Source: a virus
IMG/VR virus record: IMGVR_UViG_3300025695_000022
Location: 1-47,690 of that record
Direction: 5' to 3' (one strand)
DNA length: 47,690 bases
The translations under genes were made by a program, and so were the position numbers. Numbering within the stretch: the stretch's first letter is position 1; each line of letters starts with the position of its first letter. The notes beneath the pieces are model-generated. The model made no database searches. It was not told the origin of the DNA and worked only from the letters and a program-made list of their open reading frames with translations. Shown here piece by piece: positions 3,188 through 45,775 of the stretch.

Positions 3188-4480
3188 TTATATATTAGAA
3201 TAGTTACGTTCTAGTGCAGATACAAGAGCTATTGAATTTTCAATAGTACGTGCAATAGTACCTGTAGCTGAAACATATTGTGCGTTATTGAGACCGATAG
3301 CGACAAGTGTCACATCCTTATCAATTCCTGTGCCACCACCTGCCGTGTCACCGTCATAGTCATATGAGAATGTAACAGTAGCTCCTGTGATGTTACCTGT
3401 AATAGGATTACCATCAGCGTCATCAACAGTAGTTGCAGAAGAAGTACCAAAGTTATCGCTATAGTACATACGATAAATAGCTGACCCATCGCTAACTAAG
3501 TTAGAGTTAAATGATATAGTACCTGCCGCAACAAATGGGAATGTACGCTTTGTGCCTGAAGTATCTGTGAACTCTAAACGGTTGACATCTGTTGTTTGGA
3601 AGTTATCAATGTAAACACCGGTCGAGGTGACCAAAGTATCTCCTACAAACGCAAGCAATTCGTTAGCAGTCTGACCTACGGTGGTCGATAAGGTGTCTAT
3701 GGTTGTTGATTTACGTAGTAAGCTTTGGATAGCCATGTAGATATCTTCAGCAGTTTTATCGTTACCATCAATGATAACATCAAAGTTACGCGTGACACCA
3801 CCGATATCTCTTGTAGTGGCACCATAAGTTAATGTTACACCGTATGCATCAACGGTCACGTCACTTTCCGTAACCTTGAGATCACTTTGGTTGGATAGTG
3901 GGAATCGGTAAGTCTGATAAGTCATATGACTAACACCGATGTCATCTAAACTTGCACTTGCGTAAGTCTTAGCTTGCTCTCTTACAAACATCTTGAGGAA
4001 GCTACGGTAATCGAAGTCACCATTATCTGCATCGCCAAATACTTTAACTGCTTGGTTAACTGGGCCTGTTATTATGATATCAGTGGATGCACCATCTACT
4101 ACTTGTTGGTAATAGACCTGATCTGAAGCACCAAGAGAACCCAAGGTTATAAGACCTGCATACTCTTCTGCAGAAGAACCATCATCGTTCTTTACTGCAA
4201 AACCTGCACTACGGATAAGATTAACTGTTGTAGTATCAGCAGGCTTCCACCCATTGATAAACTCAAACTGCTCAGATGTGATAGCAATCATAGGGAAAGG
4301 ATAGCGGATAAGAGTGTTATCGTTTTTCCATTCTTCCTTGATAAAAGAGTATAATGTTTGTAGTGTAACACCATCTGACGAAAGGTTACCTGCTACTAAG
4401 AGTTGTATTGTTTTGTTAGCAGTGTCAAACACCACCTCTGTTGCTTGATTCAGGTTATCTGGATCTGTTATCAATGCCAT
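3188..4480 (-). CDS. Fibre-like virion protein, 430 aa
   Basis: A 430-residue protein without enzyme motifs. The N-terminal third contains the segments YSFIKEEWKND and FPMIAITSEQFEFINGW, characteristic (from memory of marine phage genomes) of a conserved structural protein family found next to tail-fibre genes. The remainder is rich in T, S, D, G and V, typical of beta-structured fibre or baseplate decoration proteins. It shares the opening MALI with the 876-aa protein just upstream, and the two are 12 bases apart with clear Shine-Dalgarno sites (AAGGAGAAACAAAA here), so they are co-transcribed. Exact position in the virion is unknown. Confidence 0.65.
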   Translation of the reverse strand: MALITDPDNLNQATEVVFDTANKTIQLLVAGNLSSDGVTLQTLYSFIKEEWKNDNTLIRYPFPMIAITSEQFEFINGWKPADTTTVNLIRSAGFAVKNDDGSSAEEYAGLITLGSLGASDQVYYQQVVDGASTDIIITGPVNQAVKVFGDADNGDFDYRSFLKMFVREQAKTYASASLDDIGVSHMTYQTYRFPLSNQSDLKVTESDVTVDAYGVTLTYGATTRDIGGVTRNFDVIIDGNDKTAEDIYMAIQSLLRKSTTIDTLSTTVGQTANELLAFVGDTLVTSTGVYIDNFQTTDVNRLEFTDTSGTKRTFPFVAAGTISFNSNLVSDGSAIYRMYYSDNFGTSSATTVDDADGNPITGNITGATVTFSYDYDGDTAGGGTGIDKDVTLVAIGLNNAQYVSATGTIARTIENSIALVSALERNYSNI

Positions 4481-33681: not shown

Positions 33682-34254
33682 ATGAGTAAAAGTGAATCTA
33701 ATACCCCTCTAAGTAGCACAACAGATGATTTAATTTCTTGTGCTACTCTCAAAGCTTTTAAATTAAATGAAAACGCATTATTGCCAACTAGAGCAACTGA
33801 AGACTCTGCTTGTTTTGATGTATGTGGATTTTTTGAATATGGTCAGAAATTAAAAAGCTTCAATTCATGGAATAAAGAAGTACAAACTCCAGTTAAATTA
33901 ATTGGAAATAAACCTACTATTCAATTACATCCAGAACATAGAATTCTAATTCCAACTGGTCTTATTTTTGATATACCAGAACATCACGTATTAAAGATGT
34001 ATATTCGTTCTAGTGTTGCGTTAAAACAAGGTTTATCGTTATCTAATGGTACCGGAATCATAGATGCAGACTACGTTGAACAATCATATGTTATGTTAAC
34101 TAATATGTCTGAAAGCCTTGTTAACATCATCTCGGGCGAACGTTTAGCTCAAGTAGAATTACAACCAGTTTATAAAACAGCATTAGAAGAAATCACAGAA
34201 AGACCTGAAACTAAAACAGACCGCGAAGGTGGTTTTGGTTCAACTGGTAAATAA
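33682..34254 (+). CDS. dut: dUTPase (trimeric type)
   Basis: A 190-residue protein with the five dUTPase motifs: DSACFDV (1), MYIRSSVALKQG (2), NGTGIIDADYVEQ (3), SGERLAQVEL (4) and the C-terminal P-loop-like arm REGGFGSTG (5). It hydrolyses dUTP to dUMP, keeping uracil out of DNA and feeding dTMP synthesis together with the deaminase at 23698. It is a different family from T4 gp56, so dCTP removal for hydroxymethylcytosine DNA must be done by something else. The start context is AAGGTAATTTATATTATG. Confidence 0.93.
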   Translation: MSKSESNTPLSSTTDDLISCATLKAFKLNENALLPTRATEDSACFDVCGFFEYGQKLKSFNSWNKEVQTPVKLIGNKPTIQLHPEHRILIPTGLIFDIPEHHVLKMYIRSSVALKQGLSLSNGTGIIDADYVEQSYVMLTNMSESLVNIISGERLAQVELQPVYKTALEEITERPETKTDREGGFGSTGK

Positions 34255-34391: not shown

Positions 34392-34847
34392 ATGAATGGT
34401 TTTAACATTAATAACCTTACACCTTTTGCCGTTGGTTTCGATCGCGTATTAGATCGTTTAGCAGAACAAGAAAGACATACTCGCCAACCACAAGGGTTTC
34501 CACCTTACAATATCCGTAAGGAAACAGATTCCAAGTTTTATATTGATCTAGCAGTTGCTGGGTTAAGTCAGGACGACTTGGAAATTAAAGTTGAAAAAGG
34601 CGAACTAGTTGTTCGTTCTACGTTTGACGAGAAAACATTTAAAGGCGAATTATTGCATCGCGGTATTTCGTTTAAAAAGTTTACTAGATCATTCACTTTA
34701 GCCGATGATATAAAAGTACGTGGCGCTGATATGCAGCATGGCCTTCTGTCAATTGAATTAGAGAGAATAGTGCCGGATGAAGATAAACCGGTGACAATTA
34801 ATATAAGAAATCAAAAAGATGATTCTAAGGAATTCTTGACAGAATAA
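34392..34847 (+). CDS. hsp20: Small heat-shock protein (Hsp20 / alpha-crystallin)
   Basis: A 151-residue protein with the alpha-crystallin domain from about residue 45 to 140: PPYNIRKETDSKFYIDLAVAGLSQDDLEI, GELVVRS, then the conserved RGISFKKFTRSFTLADDIKV and GLLSIELERIVP. Hsp20 is a hallmark of T4-like cyanophages and several other marine T4-likes and probably aids virion protein folding late in infection. AGGAGAAAACT precedes the ATG, and the leader contains a late promoter and possible RNA structures. A strong UUCG-loop terminator follows. Confidence 0.92.
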   Translation: MNGFNINNLTPFAVGFDRVLDRLAEQERHTRQPQGFPPYNIRKETDSKFYIDLAVAGLSQDDLEIKVEKGELVVRSTFDEKTFKGELLHRGISFKKFTRSFTLADDIKVRGADMQHGLLSIELERIVPDEDKPVTINIRNQKDDSKEFLTE

Positions 34848-35237: not shown

Positions 35238-36935
35238 TTATATAGGTAAACCGTCAGAACCACCACCTTGGCTGCCAGCCAAGACATAAGAATTGTTCGT
35301 CGCAGAACTAGAACCACCTTGATTAAATACTTGATTATACACTGGCGAATTCTTAACAATTGTAACAGATTGGTCAGTTGAACCGCCCATTCTATCTAAG
35401 AATTGAGACATGGTAGGAGCTTTTTCCATATTAATTTGTTCTTGAGTCTTACCCATATCCATTAACGGTCCTTGACCATTTAAAGAACTATTTGGATTTA
35501 TAACATCATAGTCTGCGCCAAGTTTCAACGCGGCTGCTTCATTTGCCTTTATCTGATCTAAGATCTCTTGTTCTTTGCGCTTATTCTTTTCAACCGCTTC
35601 TACTAGGTGTTTTTCATTTGTTGCGCTAGGAAGGTTTTCATAATGGTGTTTGGCAATGCGTAGTCTATTCGCAGCTTGTATTCTTTCTTTTTCTAACTTT
35701 TCTTCTAATCTTGCCTTTTCTTCTAAATAAGATTGTTCTGCTTGTTTAGCGCCATCAGCAATTTGCGTTTCTAAATCTGATATTTCTTTTTCTATTCGAC
35801 TTGTGTCTAATCCATTATCTAGTAATTTTTGTCTTCTTTGTACTAACTCTGCTAATCTACTATCAGCTTCAGTTCTTTCGTTTACTATATCTTCCATTGC
35901 ATTCGTTAACGTACCATTATCAAGAACTTGGTCGTCAATATAATCTATTGCTAGTTTACCTAAGCCGAAAGCAGCGCCGGCCGCAGCACCTATCAAGGCG
36001 CCTTTAGGTCCAAACATTGCACCGAGAGTAGCACCACCGGCTGCATATGTTCCTAGATCCACTGCAGAATCTGCTAAATCAAAACCAGCTACTTGTCCAG
36101 GAGTTCTACCTAATGCTTCTTTTTGAATATAATCAGATATTGATTGCGCGTTAGATAATATACCAATACCTGCAGCCGCGAATAACGCTTTGCCTAATCC
36201 AGGGACTCTAGCCCCAGGCTTTGGTTTTGGTGTCTTAGGAGTTTTTCCTTTTTTCCCTTTCTTCTTATCTTTGCCATCGCCATCGCCACCACCCATAAGA
36301 GATGTCGTAAAATTAGTTAAAGCGGTACCTAATTTTAATCCTGCGATAGTAGTCATTGTGGTATTCATTACAGCTGCCAAACCAGCTAATCCTGCGACCG
36401 CAACACCTATAGTACCAATGTTGTCTGTTAAAATAGAAAAATCCAAATCCATTAATTGGTCTTTAATCTCAGTCAATTTTCCATCAGTCATTTCATCAAC
36501 AAAACCATAGATAACAGGCAATGCAGTTAAAAGAGCTCCACCGATTAATAAGTTCTTTGGATTGATTAAACCTCTGATCATTCCAAACAAACCTTTGCTT
36601 TCCCTTTCAGGTTTTTCTGTCGGTTGTTCTATTGGTGTTTGCGTTTCTTGACTAGTACTACTATCTTGGTTATCTCTATTTAACTCTGCTTCAGCTGACT
36701 CTCTTCTTACACGCTCAAGATTAGTTTGCGCTTGTTCTCGACTATCTAATAGACTCTGTCTTAATATATCAGTTTGCTCAATAACATTATCTGCAATGGT
36801 ATCAAATAAACCTTCGAATTTACCAAGATCAGCTTTAACAGAGCGAATTGAGTTGGCACCAGAATTTCTTAATAGGTTACCCTCCGCCTTGAGGCGATCT
36901 ATGATTGCTTGTGTTTCTATTGATAGTTCAGCCAT
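35238..36935 (-). CDS. 29: Tail tape-measure protein (gp29-like)
   Basis: 565 residues (T4 gp29 is 590). N-terminal helical region; then hydrophobic segments (LLIGGALLTALPVIYGFV and GVAVAGLAGLAAV, about residues 130-190), a Lys/Pro-rich linker, a Gly/Ala-rich hydrophobic region (about 290-330) and a long coiled coil (about 350-470). This mix of coiled coil and membrane-like segments is typical of tape-measure proteins. Position next to gp26- and gp54-like genes agrees with T4 order 26-51-27-28-29-48-54. The gene is immediately downstream of the predicted frameshift extension, as tape measures follow G/GT in siphophages. Confidence 0.8.
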   Translation of the reverse strand: MAELSIETQAIIDRLKAEGNLLRNSGANSIRSVKADLGKFEGLFDTIADNVIEQTDILRQSLLDSREQAQTNLERVRRESAEAELNRDNQDSSTSQETQTPIEQPTEKPERESKGLFGMIRGLINPKNLLIGGALLTALPVIYGFVDEMTDGKLTEIKDQLMDLDFSILTDNIGTIGVAVAGLAGLAAVMNTTMTTIAGLKLGTALTNFTTSLMGGGDGDGKDKKKGKKGKTPKTPKPKPGARVPGLGKALFAAAGIGILSNAQSISDYIQKEALGRTPGQVAGFDLADSAVDLGTYAAGGATLGAMFGPKGALIGAAAGAAFGLGKLAIDYIDDQVLDNGTLTNAMEDIVNERTEADSRLAELVQRRQKLLDNGLDTSRIEKEISDLETQIADGAKQAEQSYLEEKARLEEKLEKERIQAANRLRIAKHHYENLPSATNEKHLVEAVEKNKRKEQEILDQIKANEAAALKLGADYDVINPNSSLNGQGPLMDMGKTQEQINMEKAPTMSQFLDRMGGSTDQSVTIVKNSPVYNQVFNQGGSSSATNNSYVLAGSQGGGSDGLPI

Positions 36936-36940
36936 TTAAT

Positions 36941-37120
36941 TTATCCGCTCTTTTCTTTTTGTTTTTCGATCCAATTAATCAGCATTCCAAAGTATAAGTC
37001 ACGTTCATAAGGCATCATGTTTTCTATATCTGATATTGAATATTTGTGATGCTGTGCCAAAGCAAAAACCATTTGGTAATACTCGCCTAAACTAATATGG
37101 CACAGCGCTAAATAAAAAAA
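36941..37120 (-). CDS. Frameshift extension of gp26 (GT-like tape-measure chaperone domain)
   Basis: From the slippery heptamer T TTT TTT (37120-37114, minus strand) a -1 shift leads into a 57-residue frame that ends at 36941. It reads HISLGEYYQMVFALAQHH, then SDIENMMPYERDLYFGML and a Lys-rich end. The only ATG is at 37072, inside the conserved-looking helix and without a good Shine-Dalgarno, giving 43 residues. The MPYERDLYF pattern resembles the short helical T domains that follow G in tail chaperone pairs. Expression by frameshift is inferred from the in-register slippery site and the lack of a start. Confidence 0.6.
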   Translation of the reverse strand, partial: FFYLALCHISLGEYYQMVFALAQHHKYSISDIENMMPYERDLYFGMLINWIEKQKEKSG

Positions 37121-37806
37121 CTACGCATTCCTTCTAAAACGAATGTCTGTTCTTTACCTTCTTTATTTTTGTATTTCATTTCATGTCTTAACTTTGGCAT
37201 TGTCTCAAAGAACTTTTGTATTCCTTTAATAACATCGCCTGTCATATCTTCCATGAAGCTATCAATTTGCTCATCAGTATAATCTTTAAAATTAAATACT
37301 TCATCTTCCGAAGCAATAGTATCTAAACATGATGTCATTACAAAATAATTAACTAAAGGATCTTTTGGATCCATTTTAATAATCTTAGTAAATTCATCAA
37401 TAGATGGATATTTTAGAAATAAAGAATATTCGTCGTTTACTTGTATTCTATTGGTATGTTCTTCACTTTTTACAACTTTTACTTCATTAATATCTACATT
37501 TAATTGCACCGTTTCATTTGTATCTGGATCTTTTATTGAAAACGCGATTTCGTTATCAACAGCGCGCCCTCTTAATACTAATAAAACATATTCTAAATCA
37601 AACATTGCCAAACTAGAAACTTCTTTGTCTATAAGGCAATTGTTTACTATTTGTTTTGTTGCCAATAGTTCTTGTTCTGCGTCGTTAGATTCCTGTGCAA
37701 CCAAAAGAATCTTTTCTTCTTTTACAGTAAAGGGTCTATACTTTACTTTTTCGCCAGTTGAAGGCAATTCCAATTCTGAGATTGGTAAATCAATTTTAGG
37801 TAACAT
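37108..37806 (-). CDS. 26: Baseplate hub / tail assembly protein (gp26-like)
   Basis: A 232-residue protein matching the T4 gp26 baseplate family (T4 208 aa): it opens LPKIDLPISELELPSTGEKVKYRPFTVKEEKILL, and later contains LEYVLLVLRGRAVDNEI. It lies directly upstream of the tape-measure gene with the extension frame between them. Its last codons contain the heptamer T TTT TTT just before the stop, so a fraction of ribosomes may add the 57-residue extension (about 288 aa in total). If so it is the G protein and the fusion the GT protein of tail assembly. The start follows AAAGGAGATTTATATA. Confidence 0.85.
   Translation of the reverse strand: MLPKIDLPISELELPSTGEKVKYRPFTVKEEKILLVAQESNDAEQELLATKQIVNNCLIDKEVSSLAMFDLEYVLLVLRGRAVDNEIAFSIKDPDTNETVQLNVDINEVKVVKSEEHTNRIQVNDEYSLFLKYPSIDEFTKIIKMDPKDPLVNYFVMTSCLDTIASEDEVFNFKDYTDEQIDSFMEDMTGDVIKGIQKFFETMPKLRHEMKYKNKEGKEQTFVLEGMRSFFI
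37114..37120 (-). other. Predicted -1 ribosomal frameshift site (U UUU UUU)
   Basis: Gene 26 codons read AGT TTT TTT ATT TAG; the last T of AGT plus TTT TTT forms an in-frame X-XXY-YYZ heptamer two codons before the stop. The -1 frame is open for 57 codons. Confidence 0.6.
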
Positions 37807-37820
37807 TATATAAATCTCCT

Positions 37821-38618
37821 TTAGTACTTATTACTAATATTGTCCATTGAGTTTCTTACACGTTGTAATTTGTTGATAGCGTCTTGTACGCTTTCGAATT
37901 TAAGCCCATCTTTAAATGTTTGATTTACAACACTGCCGAAAGATGCGAAATCTCCGAGTGCGTCTAATAAACCATTTCCTCTCGAGTTCCTACCACCGGA
38001 TGGAGTTCCTGTTAAAGTACCATCGAATGAAATATTATCATACGCAAACGAAATAGGTAATGTAAGGAAAGAATCGTTACTCTCCCATGCTAAATCTAAA
38101 TCGCCCATTGCTACAGGAAACGCGTTAGATAATTGTATTTCGTAATACTTATCGAATGGATAGTTATCACTCTCTGTTGAATAATGTCTTATTACGACTG
38201 TCGTAGAATACTCTCTTTTGTATCCTATTTCATATGGAAGTTGATTTCCATTAATGGCGTTATATTTTCCACCGCCTGATCCATGATTCACTATCTTTTG
38301 CATCCACTTGTGGAAATAATTTAATATCTCGTGATCAGAGTCTACCATAAAAACAGTATTAATAGGTTCGTTAGTAACACTTGTTGGAAATACTTTAGCT
38401 AACTGACCAACCTGATTAAGTGGTGTTGTATCAAAATTAATTCCAGGGATTGTCGCCGAAGAACAGAAAAAAGAAAACGTTCTTGAATTTATTCTATCAG
38501 ATTCTTCAGTAGTTGCGTCGTTATCTATACCAGCAATAATCACTTCGAAAAGAGATGATCTTGCGGGTCCGCCTCTACGGTCCATTTCTGATTTAAATTG
38601 ACTAATATTAAAAGCCAT
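37821..38618 (-). CDS. 54: Baseplate tail-tube initiator (gp54-like)
   Basis: A 265-residue protein of the gp19/gp54 tube fold. The segments NQVGQLAKVFPTSVTNEPINTVFMVDSDHEILNYFHKWM, PVAMGDLDLAWESND and TLPISFAYDNISFD follow the T4 gp54 order: strand pair, helix with HKWM, then the conserved final strands. T4 gp54 (320 aa) caps the hub and starts tube polymerisation. It lies between gp26-like and a conserved 203-aa gene; nearby, in the opposite direction, lies gp48, its T4 partner. Assignment to gp54 rather than another tube paralogue rests on this context. Confidence 0.7.
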   Translation of the reverse strand: MAFNISQFKSEMDRRGGPARSSLFEVIIAGIDNDATTEESDRINSRTFSFFCSSATIPGINFDTTPLNQVGQLAKVFPTSVTNEPINTVFMVDSDHEILNYFHKWMQKIVNHGSGGGKYNAINGNQLPYEIGYKREYSTTVVIRHYSTESDNYPFDKYYEIQLSNAFPVAMGDLDLAWESNDSFLTLPISFAYDNISFDGTLTGTPSGGRNSRGNGLLDALGDFASFGSVVNQTFKDGLKFESVQDAINKLQRVRNSMDNISNKY

Positions 38619-44215: not shown

Positions 44216-45775
44216 ATGTCTAATTGCATTGATAGATCAGACCAAACAACATTAAATGCTCTTGCGAGTGTAGCAGGTCCTGGGACAAATTCAAATGGTG
44301 AATATACTTTAAATCAAATAGATGTATTCGCTCAAGACTTTTTAAATAACATTGAAAACGACGCAGAATCTAATCCAATTATAAATGCTAAAATAAAATA
44401 TGGTGATTCTGTTGATGAAGCCATCTCATATTTAAATGGAAATTTCTTTAATCAAGATTATGTACAAAACGATCTTCCTGATTATCCTAATTTAAATACA
44501 AGATTACAATCTGGTTCTGTCACTGCTATGGAATTTACAGATTTTATAGAACAATTTAATCATACTCCTAGTGGTGTTATTACAAAGGGTAATGAAGATT
44601 ACTTAAAGTTATTATATCAATTAGAAAGATATTATGCAGAAGATATTTTTGGCGGAGCTTTGGCTGGAATATGTGGATCTTTTCAAAATATTTTTGGAGC
44701 GATAGAAGATTTCTTTAATTTACTTGGACAAATAGAAGGATTGGTAAATGATGCATTTGCTTTTCTATCTAAGATTAGAGACTTTAAAAAGTTTATTTTT
44801 GAACAAGCAGAAAAGATTACAGTTGAAAAATTAATAAAAGCAATTAAAGAGTTTATTGGAGATGAAATAGAAAAAATCATTACTATATTCCAACAGATCT
44901 TTGAAAATTTTAAAATTCTAGATATTATTGATGATGTCACTACATATATTGATAAAGTAACAATAAAAAGAATTATGAAAACTAAAGATGATGGTTGTTT
45001 ATTCTTTTCTGATAAAAATAAACAAACTATTAGAGATAAGATAAACAATTTATTCGATTATGCGTTTGGTTTATTTGAAAATCCAACACTTGAAGTTATT
45101 TCTTTTTTAGGATTTAGAATTTGCGCGTTAATGACAAACATAAAAGGTTTAATGAATGATTTTAAATCGCCATTAGATCAGTTCGAATTTAAATATAAAA
45201 GAATCTCTAATAGATTAAAAACTATTTCTAATGTACGTACATCATCTGCTATACAAAAAGGTGCAATACGTTTTTCTCCGGAGTCTCGTGCGATTGCCAT
45301 AAATAGTATACAAGCAGCATGGGATGGCGAGAACGGTTCTTTATATACACCAACAGGTAAAGCACCAATTAATCCAAAACCACCTACGATTGAAGAATAC
45401 GAACAAATACCAGCATGTAGTGCAGTAAAGGCAGGTACAGCTCAAATAAGAGTAGAAGGTAGTTGGGTTTCTGAAGATGTATTTGGAATGGAAGGTTGGA
45501 CTGGTTTAGATTATGATTTAAGAGTTTATTTAAACCGTTTACAACAATCATTAGATGCACCGATTACAGTAACAGAAGGCTGGCGATCTCAACAATATAA
45601 TGCTAAAATTGGTGGTTCTCCAGAAAATGCTCACATCAGTGGTAAGTGTGTTGATATTAAACGTAGTTCTATTTCAGCTGAAGAGATAACATCAAAGGCG
45701 CTGTTAGCAGGATTTAAATATGTAGTTGTTTATGACGATTACATCCATTTAGATATAAGAAAGATGGTAGGATAA
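44216..45775 (+). CDS. Baseplate-associated protein with C-terminal M15-type peptidase domain
   Basis: 519 residues. Residues 1-~330 are helical and structural. The last ~100 residues match M15-family D-Ala-D-Ala peptidases: VTEGWRSQQYNAKIGGSPENAHISGKCVDIKR holds the metal ligands His and Asp of the HxxGxxxD motif, and YIHLDIRK the final His. This could cut peptide cross-links of murein when the tail penetrates. It follows the gp5-like spike by 3 bases and precedes gp25 by one. The N-terminal part has no recognised family. Domain call is good; function in the virion is inferred. Confidence 0.75.
   Translation: MSNCIDRSDQTTLNALASVAGPGTNSNGEYTLNQIDVFAQDFLNNIENDAESNPIINAKIKYGDSVDEAISYLNGNFFNQDYVQNDLPDYPNLNTRLQSGSVTAMEFTDFIEQFNHTPSGVITKGNEDYLKLLYQLERYYAEDIFGGALAGICGSFQNIFGAIEDFFNLLGQIEGLVNDAFAFLSKIRDFKKFIFEQAEKITVEKLIKAIKEFIGDEIEKIITIFQQIFENFKILDIIDDVTTYIDKVTIKRIMKTKDDGCLFFSDKNKQTIRDKINNLFDYAFGLFENPTLEVISFLGFRICALMTNIKGLMNDFKSPLDQFEFKYKRISNRLKTISNVRTSSAIQKGAIRFSPESRAIAINSIQAAWDGENGSLYTPTGKAPINPKPPTIEEYEQIPACSAVKAGTAQIRVEGSWVSEDVFGMEGWTGLDYDLRVYLNRLQQSLDAPITVTEGWRSQQYNAKIGGSPENAHISGKCVDIKRSSISAEEITSKALLAGFKYVVVYDDYIHLDIRKMVG

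Follow-up and report, generated by a model that had tools for sequence, protein, structure and literature searches.

The question raised by this locus is whether the gp26 homologue of a marine T4-like phage is translated into one tail assembly chaperone (TAC) or into two. The gene ends in a run of T's, and beyond its stop codon the overlapping -1 frame continues almost to the next gene. The answer proposed here is two products: one gene very probably yields a short and a long tail assembly chaperone by a -1 slip on the U run, with the presumed tape-measure gene next to it. The window, meaning the whole stretch of DNA analysed, is an IMG/VR record of 47,690 bases that is classed there as a virus; its genes are T4-like. 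The signal for the slip in this window is unusually clear.

Gene layout

The minus-strand order was gp4-like head closure protein, gp2-like end protector, tail tube protein, gp26 homologue, extension and a 565-aa ORF. The tail tube protein (gp19-like; 37821..38618, minus strand), upstream of gp26, matched phrog_45 (E 4e-35) and PF23849. The gp26 homologue (37108..37806, minus strand; 232 aa), the candidate short chaperone (TAC-N), matched PF12322 (E 4.5e-54) and phrog_150, baseplate hub (E 8e-59). The N-terminal domain of its AlphaFold model aligned with the HK97 TAC.

The 565-aa ORF (35238..36935, minus strand) begins with an ATG 5 bases past the TAA of the extension. Family searches gave no match for it, and it is presumed to be the tape-measure protein because of its position and its length, which is close to that of T4 gp29 (590 aa). 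Its N-terminus was conserved in one relative, and comparison with the phiM12 tape measure gave no useful similarity. A 519-aa ORF elsewhere in the window (44216-45775, plus strand) matched peptidases/endolysins and, weakly, tape-measure families; it may be a lysin of the tail tip or another candidate for the tape measure. A dUTPase gene and an Hsp20-like gene lie beside the tail cluster (33682-34254 and 34392-34847, both plus strand).

The slip site and its conservation

The 3' end of the gp26 homologue reads CGT AGT TTT TTT ATT TAG. The 7-T run (37114..37120, minus strand) is in the phase of the gene as U_UUU_UUU, and the zero-frame stop TAG (37110-37108) follows one codon later. The first-pass annotation had reported the last five codons with an in-register heptamer, and was correct to the base. 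In-phase heptamers were rare in the window (4 in 15,158 codons, counting ORFs of at least 100 aa), and only the gp26 site was near a stop.

Relatives were collected as two IMG/VR sets plus 15 annotated phage loci, giving 174 usable loci, or 104 after removal of near-duplicates. An in-phase T_TTT_TT(T/C) was found in 100 of the 104 non-redundant relatives. The heptamer lay exactly 10 nt 5' of the gp26 stop in 98 of the 104; the distance was 13 nt in phiM12 and 31 nt in Mosig. The same heptamer was present in KVP40, Ah1, pf16, ACP17, BUCT608, phiM12, Mosig, an Ochrobactrum phage and cyanophages. It had been suggested at the outset that a functional site would be kept in relatives against a changing background, and this was the pattern found: heptamer, phase and distance to the stop were retained while the flanking codons varied.

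The codon preceding the Phe-Phe pair was AAT, AGT, TCT, ACT, GAT or GGT, always with a final T whatever the amino acid. The first Phe codon of the slip site was TTT without exception in the relatives with the heptamer. On the assumption of independent sequences, the codon-usage probability of this pattern was ~1e-39, a value that shows direction only because the relatives are not independent. Other Phe-Phe pairs in the gp26 genes had the slip-type pattern in 2 of 103 instances.

Three relatives (L022-L024) carry G_TTT_TTT (G_UUU_UUU; 4184-4190 in L022) in place of T_TTT_TTT before the gp26 stop and have kept the downstream stem described below. This is a weaker slip site and counts against the proposal. 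The heptamer was absent from Cygsa01 (L170), VAP7 (L172) and phiMAM1 (L178), which read CATTTTC, CGTTTTT and GGTTTTC at about 3690-3830; these phages may reach the long form by a different route. The Pelagibacter phage Mosig (L166, about 3690-3730) has its TTTTTTC 31 nt before the stop, so that more residues at the end of its short form are absent from the long form than in the other relatives.

A Shine-Dalgarno-like GAAGGA (37129..37134, minus strand) ends 8 nt before the heptamer and was considered as a possible stimulator. Mean anti-SD energy at this position was about -6, where the background was close to 0. Synonymous recoding matched the energy within error (z -0.7), so GAAGGA may simply reflect a conserved Glu-Gly-Met, and an upstream SD-like stimulator is not claimed.

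The extension and the C-terminal domain of T4 gp51

The -1 frame (36941..37120, minus strand) is open from 37120 to a TAA at 36943-36941. After the slip, 57 codons are added (37114-36944; YLALCH...EKSG), and the fusion would have 231 + 57 = 288 aa. These lengths, together with an end 5 bases before the next ATG, had already been read from the sequence, and the coordinates are confirmed. At the base composition of the window, the chance of a 57-codon open frame was P about 0.017, which by itself is weak evidence; the reality of the frame is settled by the 100 of 104 relatives that keep the heptamer.

Residues 2-57 of the extension matched phrog_634, 'baseplate hub assembly catalyst' (T4 gp51), with E 1.1e-22. 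The match thus begins at residue 2, that is, from the slip site. T4 gp26 (208 aa) consists of the PF12322 domain only, and T4 gp51 (249 aa) consists of an in-frame PF12322 (gp26) domain followed by the same extension. T4 therefore has two genes for what the phage of the window would make from one by frameshift. Judged by this homology, the extension, here termed TAC-C, is a genuine protein domain, homologous to the C-terminal portion of T4 gp51.

The extension was conserved as protein in the relatives. Variation in its frame, measured in the window clade, was highest at third codon positions (0.26/0.15/0.46 for the three positions), and the -1 frame is under protein selection, as a translated frame would be.

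Start codons in the extension frame

A separate small gene, a 'short gp51' with its own start that is translated by reinitiation after the gp26 stop, is the alternative that survives best, and it is very improbable for this window. GenBank annotations speak for it, since many cyanophage records show a small gp51 of this sort and it is annotated separately in S-RSM4 (L003), P-RSM6, S-PM2 (L176), KVP40 (L174), phiM12 (L165) and others. So do start codons in relatives: an ATG, GTG or TTG overlaps the zero-frame stop in 30 of 46 window-clade relatives and also in KVP40, BUCT608, phiM12, Cygsa01 and VAP7, the last two reading TAATG at the stop. phiMAM1 is without an overlapping start. Those 30 window-clade relatives, KVP40, BUCT608 and phiM12 retain the heptamer beside the overlapping start.

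In the window itself, however, the codon overlapping the gp26 stop is GCG. Reading along the extension frame, no ATG, GTG or TTG occurs until the ATG at 37072 (a 43-aa ORF), which lies 14 codons beyond the start of the added residues and past the conserved YLALCHISLGEYYQ; a product begun there would omit YLALCHISLGEYYQ. A separate gene is rejected for the window because the sequence ahead of the conserved residues of the extension offers no usable start. Overlapping starts were likewise found in 0 of 43 members of the cyanophage clade. Conservation that begins at the slip site, a heptamer that is kept and a stem under selection also argue against a separate gene, as does T4 gp51, in which the domain follows a gp26 domain. 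The first-pass statement that the small frame lacks a convincing start stands for the window. Start codons for the small frame in homologues had been listed there as a sign against the reading, and this sign is partly present, in the 30 window-clade relatives, KVP40, BUCT608 and phiM12 named above. In relatives whose start overlaps the stop, reinitiation could yield a free C-domain as a side product.

The downstream stem-loop

The frameshift reading gains a further element from the RNA downstream of the slip site, a stem-loop that the first-pass annotation had missed. Its main stem has 9 bp and pairs a 5' arm, GCUGUGCCA (37106-37098, minus strand), which begins after a 7-nt spacer past the heptamer, within the about 5-9 nt expected of a -1 frameshift signal, with a 3' arm, UGGCACAGC (37059-37051, minus strand). 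Across 45 distinct relatives, 96.5% of the alignment cells of the main stem were paired. Pair 19-66 occurred as UA (18), UG (11), AU (10), CG (2) and GC (1). When the partner strand was slid by 1-3 columns, pairing of both helices together fell from 82.6% to 36-45%. RNAalifold, unaided, recovered the same nine pairs of the main stem.

A weaker inner helix lies in the loop of the main stem (37060..37088, minus strand), pairing 37088-37082 with 37066-37060. It was paired in 64.8% of cells, with changes on both sides at 4 of 7 pairs, and was missing from the RNAalifold consensus; the inner helix is tentative.

Folding energies were compared with synonymous recoding, a control that keeps the protein sequence. 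The 66 nt of the window had an MFE of -22.0 kcal/mol (z -2.9). Over 66 nt, window-clade loci averaged z -3.2, and over 36 nt, cyanophage-clade loci averaged z -4.1; the corresponding controls from the gp26 body gave -0.4 and -0.3. In a 600-nt scan, folding z dipped to ~-3 only at the slip-site stem in both clades, the next lowest value being -1.8. A smaller second dip (z -1.8) was seen in cyanophage-clade loci, inside the extension about 90 nt past the heptamer. The downstream stem covaries and exceeds the expectation from synonymous recoding, and on these comparisons it is under selection.

The form of the stem differed between groups. The window clade has a long-range stem and the cyanophages a compact one; unrelated stems were found in phiM12, S-PM2, P-RSM6, Ah1 and KVP40. 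The cyanophage clade has a different hairpin, ACUCUUCCA/UGGAAGGGU, at the same starting column. In the window clade, L040 has partly lost the old pairing and has GCUAAUGC/GCAUUAGC in a shifted register, and in the cyanophage clade L122 and its relatives have a shifted CCCUCU/AGAGGG. These three pairings were read from the sequence. Taken alone, the cyanophage hairpin hardly varies in the covariation test, which is therefore uninformative there, and it is the folding test that carries this hairpin.

Every one of the 12 reference phages with the heptamer had a best z below zero, ranging from about -1.8 to -4.9 (best of five lengths). Cygsa01, VAP7 and phiMAM1, which are without the heptamer, had no z beyond -0.6, so that downstream structure was missing there too. 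We give an even chance to the general statement that T4-like chaperone frameshift sites consist of a slip site and a downstream RNA hairpin that is kept yet repeatedly rebuilt. The downstream hairpin may be new to the literature. An Rfam match to Histone3 (37353-37397) fell below its cutoff and on the other strand, and was taken as chance.

Transcriptional slippage on the T run, giving frame-shifted mRNAs, has a slimmer prospect still than a separate gene. Poly-T runs are able to cause slippage of RNA polymerase, but 59 of the 100 relatives with the heptamer have TTTTTTC, with only six T's, which is short for transcriptional slippage and makes it unlikely here; a codon-phased XXXYYYZ with a stem 7 nt downstream fits the ribosome instead. 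The last alternative, a sequencing or assembly indel that split one ORF, has next to no probability: metagenomic contigs are typically prone to such errors at homopolymers like this 7-T run, but contig L005 is identical across the site and conservation refutes the idea, with well over a hundred relatives sharing the arrangement, finished isolate genomes among them and many with TTTTTTC.

Predicted fold of the short chaperone

The AlphaFold model of gp26 had a pLDDT of 85.7. A Foldseek search of the PDB ranked the HK97 tail assembly chaperone first, with a weak E of 0.48. The top three entries with VIA-align 2 were 3fgx (Z 8.4), the HK97 TAC 2ob9 (Z 7.5) and YqbN 3klu (Z 6.3), and the next entry had a Z of 4.1. 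These three matches all fall within residues 1-92 of the gp26 model and cover about residues 1-85, and Z values in the 6-8 range may reflect a common arrangement. YqbN and 3fgx are chaperones of the XkdN type. When the model was compared with predicted viral proteins, baseplate hub/gp26 proteins made up many of the best matches. A search of PDB sequences with the gp26 profile gave no convincing relative. The comparison is favourable to a resemblance between the modelled N-terminal domain and the HK97 and YqbN tail assembly chaperones.

Proposed mechanism

The heptamer, the homology of the extension, the stem, the gene order and the fold comparison together lead us to read gp26 and its frameshifted form (gp26-fs) as a TAC-N/TAC-NC pair of the lambda G/GT type. 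The slip itself, its efficiency and the assembly roles of the two forms are what we infer from these data. A majority of ribosomes would halt at the TAG and release the short form (gp26, TAC-N). A minority would be paused on U_UUU_UUU by the stem-loop 7 nt downstream; both tRNA-Phe would move back one base, and 57 further codons would be read to give the 288-aa TAC-NC. The C-terminal domain of this long form would be the one that T4 carries at the end of its separate full-length gp51. If the roles follow those of lambda gpG/gpGT, the tape measure encoded by the next gene would be coated by many short chaperones, and a few long ones would recruit tail tube subunits.

A G/GT-like pair had been proposed in the first-pass annotation, and the proposal is supported by the gp51 homology of the extension, by the conserved heptamer, phase and stop distance, and by the HK97-like N-terminal domain of the model. 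A frameshifted T4-like TAC is not new in principle; the annotation arrived independently, and correctly, at a system already known, here in one more phage.

Relation to known systems

The E. coli dnaX frameshift signal comprises a slippery A-run heptamer, a downstream stem and an upstream SD-like stretch. The window has a heptamer and a downstream stem in common with it; the run is of U's rather than A's, and an SD-like element is putative in the window. T4-like TACs are reportedly the subject of a 2022 study by Vladimirov, Gautam and Davidson, in which frameshifting is said to be kept in several groups and T4 to use genes 26 and 51.

The PRFect paper (PMC10885494) refers to Vladimirov et al. 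2022 (doi 10.1016/j.virol.2021.11.003) for the finding that some T4-like phages carry a short and a fused long TAC gene and do not use a frameshift. Poly-T slip sites in the TAC-N genes of T4-like phages are credited to that work in the phage Adele paper (PMC12846349). A 2016 review of recoding (PMC5009743) still treats T4 as an exception among long-tailed phages. Cyanophage gp51 is described by Sullivan et al. 2010 (PMC3037559) as 'reduced', being short of about 200 N-terminal residues, and the part of that article dealing with it offers no explanation. The present reading would account for an annotation problem in many T4-like genomes, since what is annotated as a 'short gp51' most likely represents the C-terminal portion of a frameshifted protein.

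The T4-like TACs, with gp26 as TAC-N and gp51 as TAC-NC, belong to the same protein families as those of the window, which adds a further phage. T4 gp26 and gp51 are both PF12322 proteins, and the domain at the end of gp51 is the one that a frameshift would add in the window; unlike the window, T4 has genes 26 and 51 separate and on opposite strands, with no frameshift. Lambda gpG/gpGT, an instance of the frameshift conserved in long-tailed phages (Xu et al. 2004), comprises a short form and a -1 frameshifted long form directly upstream of the tape measure, as proposed for the window, whereas the slip site of the window is U_UUU_UU(U/C) and its proteins are of the gp26 family. Marine T4-like phages would thus be linked to lambda G/GT, with the separate genes 26 and 51 of T4 as an alternative to frameshifting. 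The covarying hairpin is a concrete element by which the phage may set the ratio between the two chaperones.

The TAC locus of the Vandenendeviridae (phage Adele, PMC12846349) also has a -1 slip where TAC-N ends in a T-rich site, and a long open -1 frame; it differs from the window in its motif, GTTTTT, and in belonging to another phage family. The G_TTT_TTT of L022-L024 resembles this GTTTTT motif.
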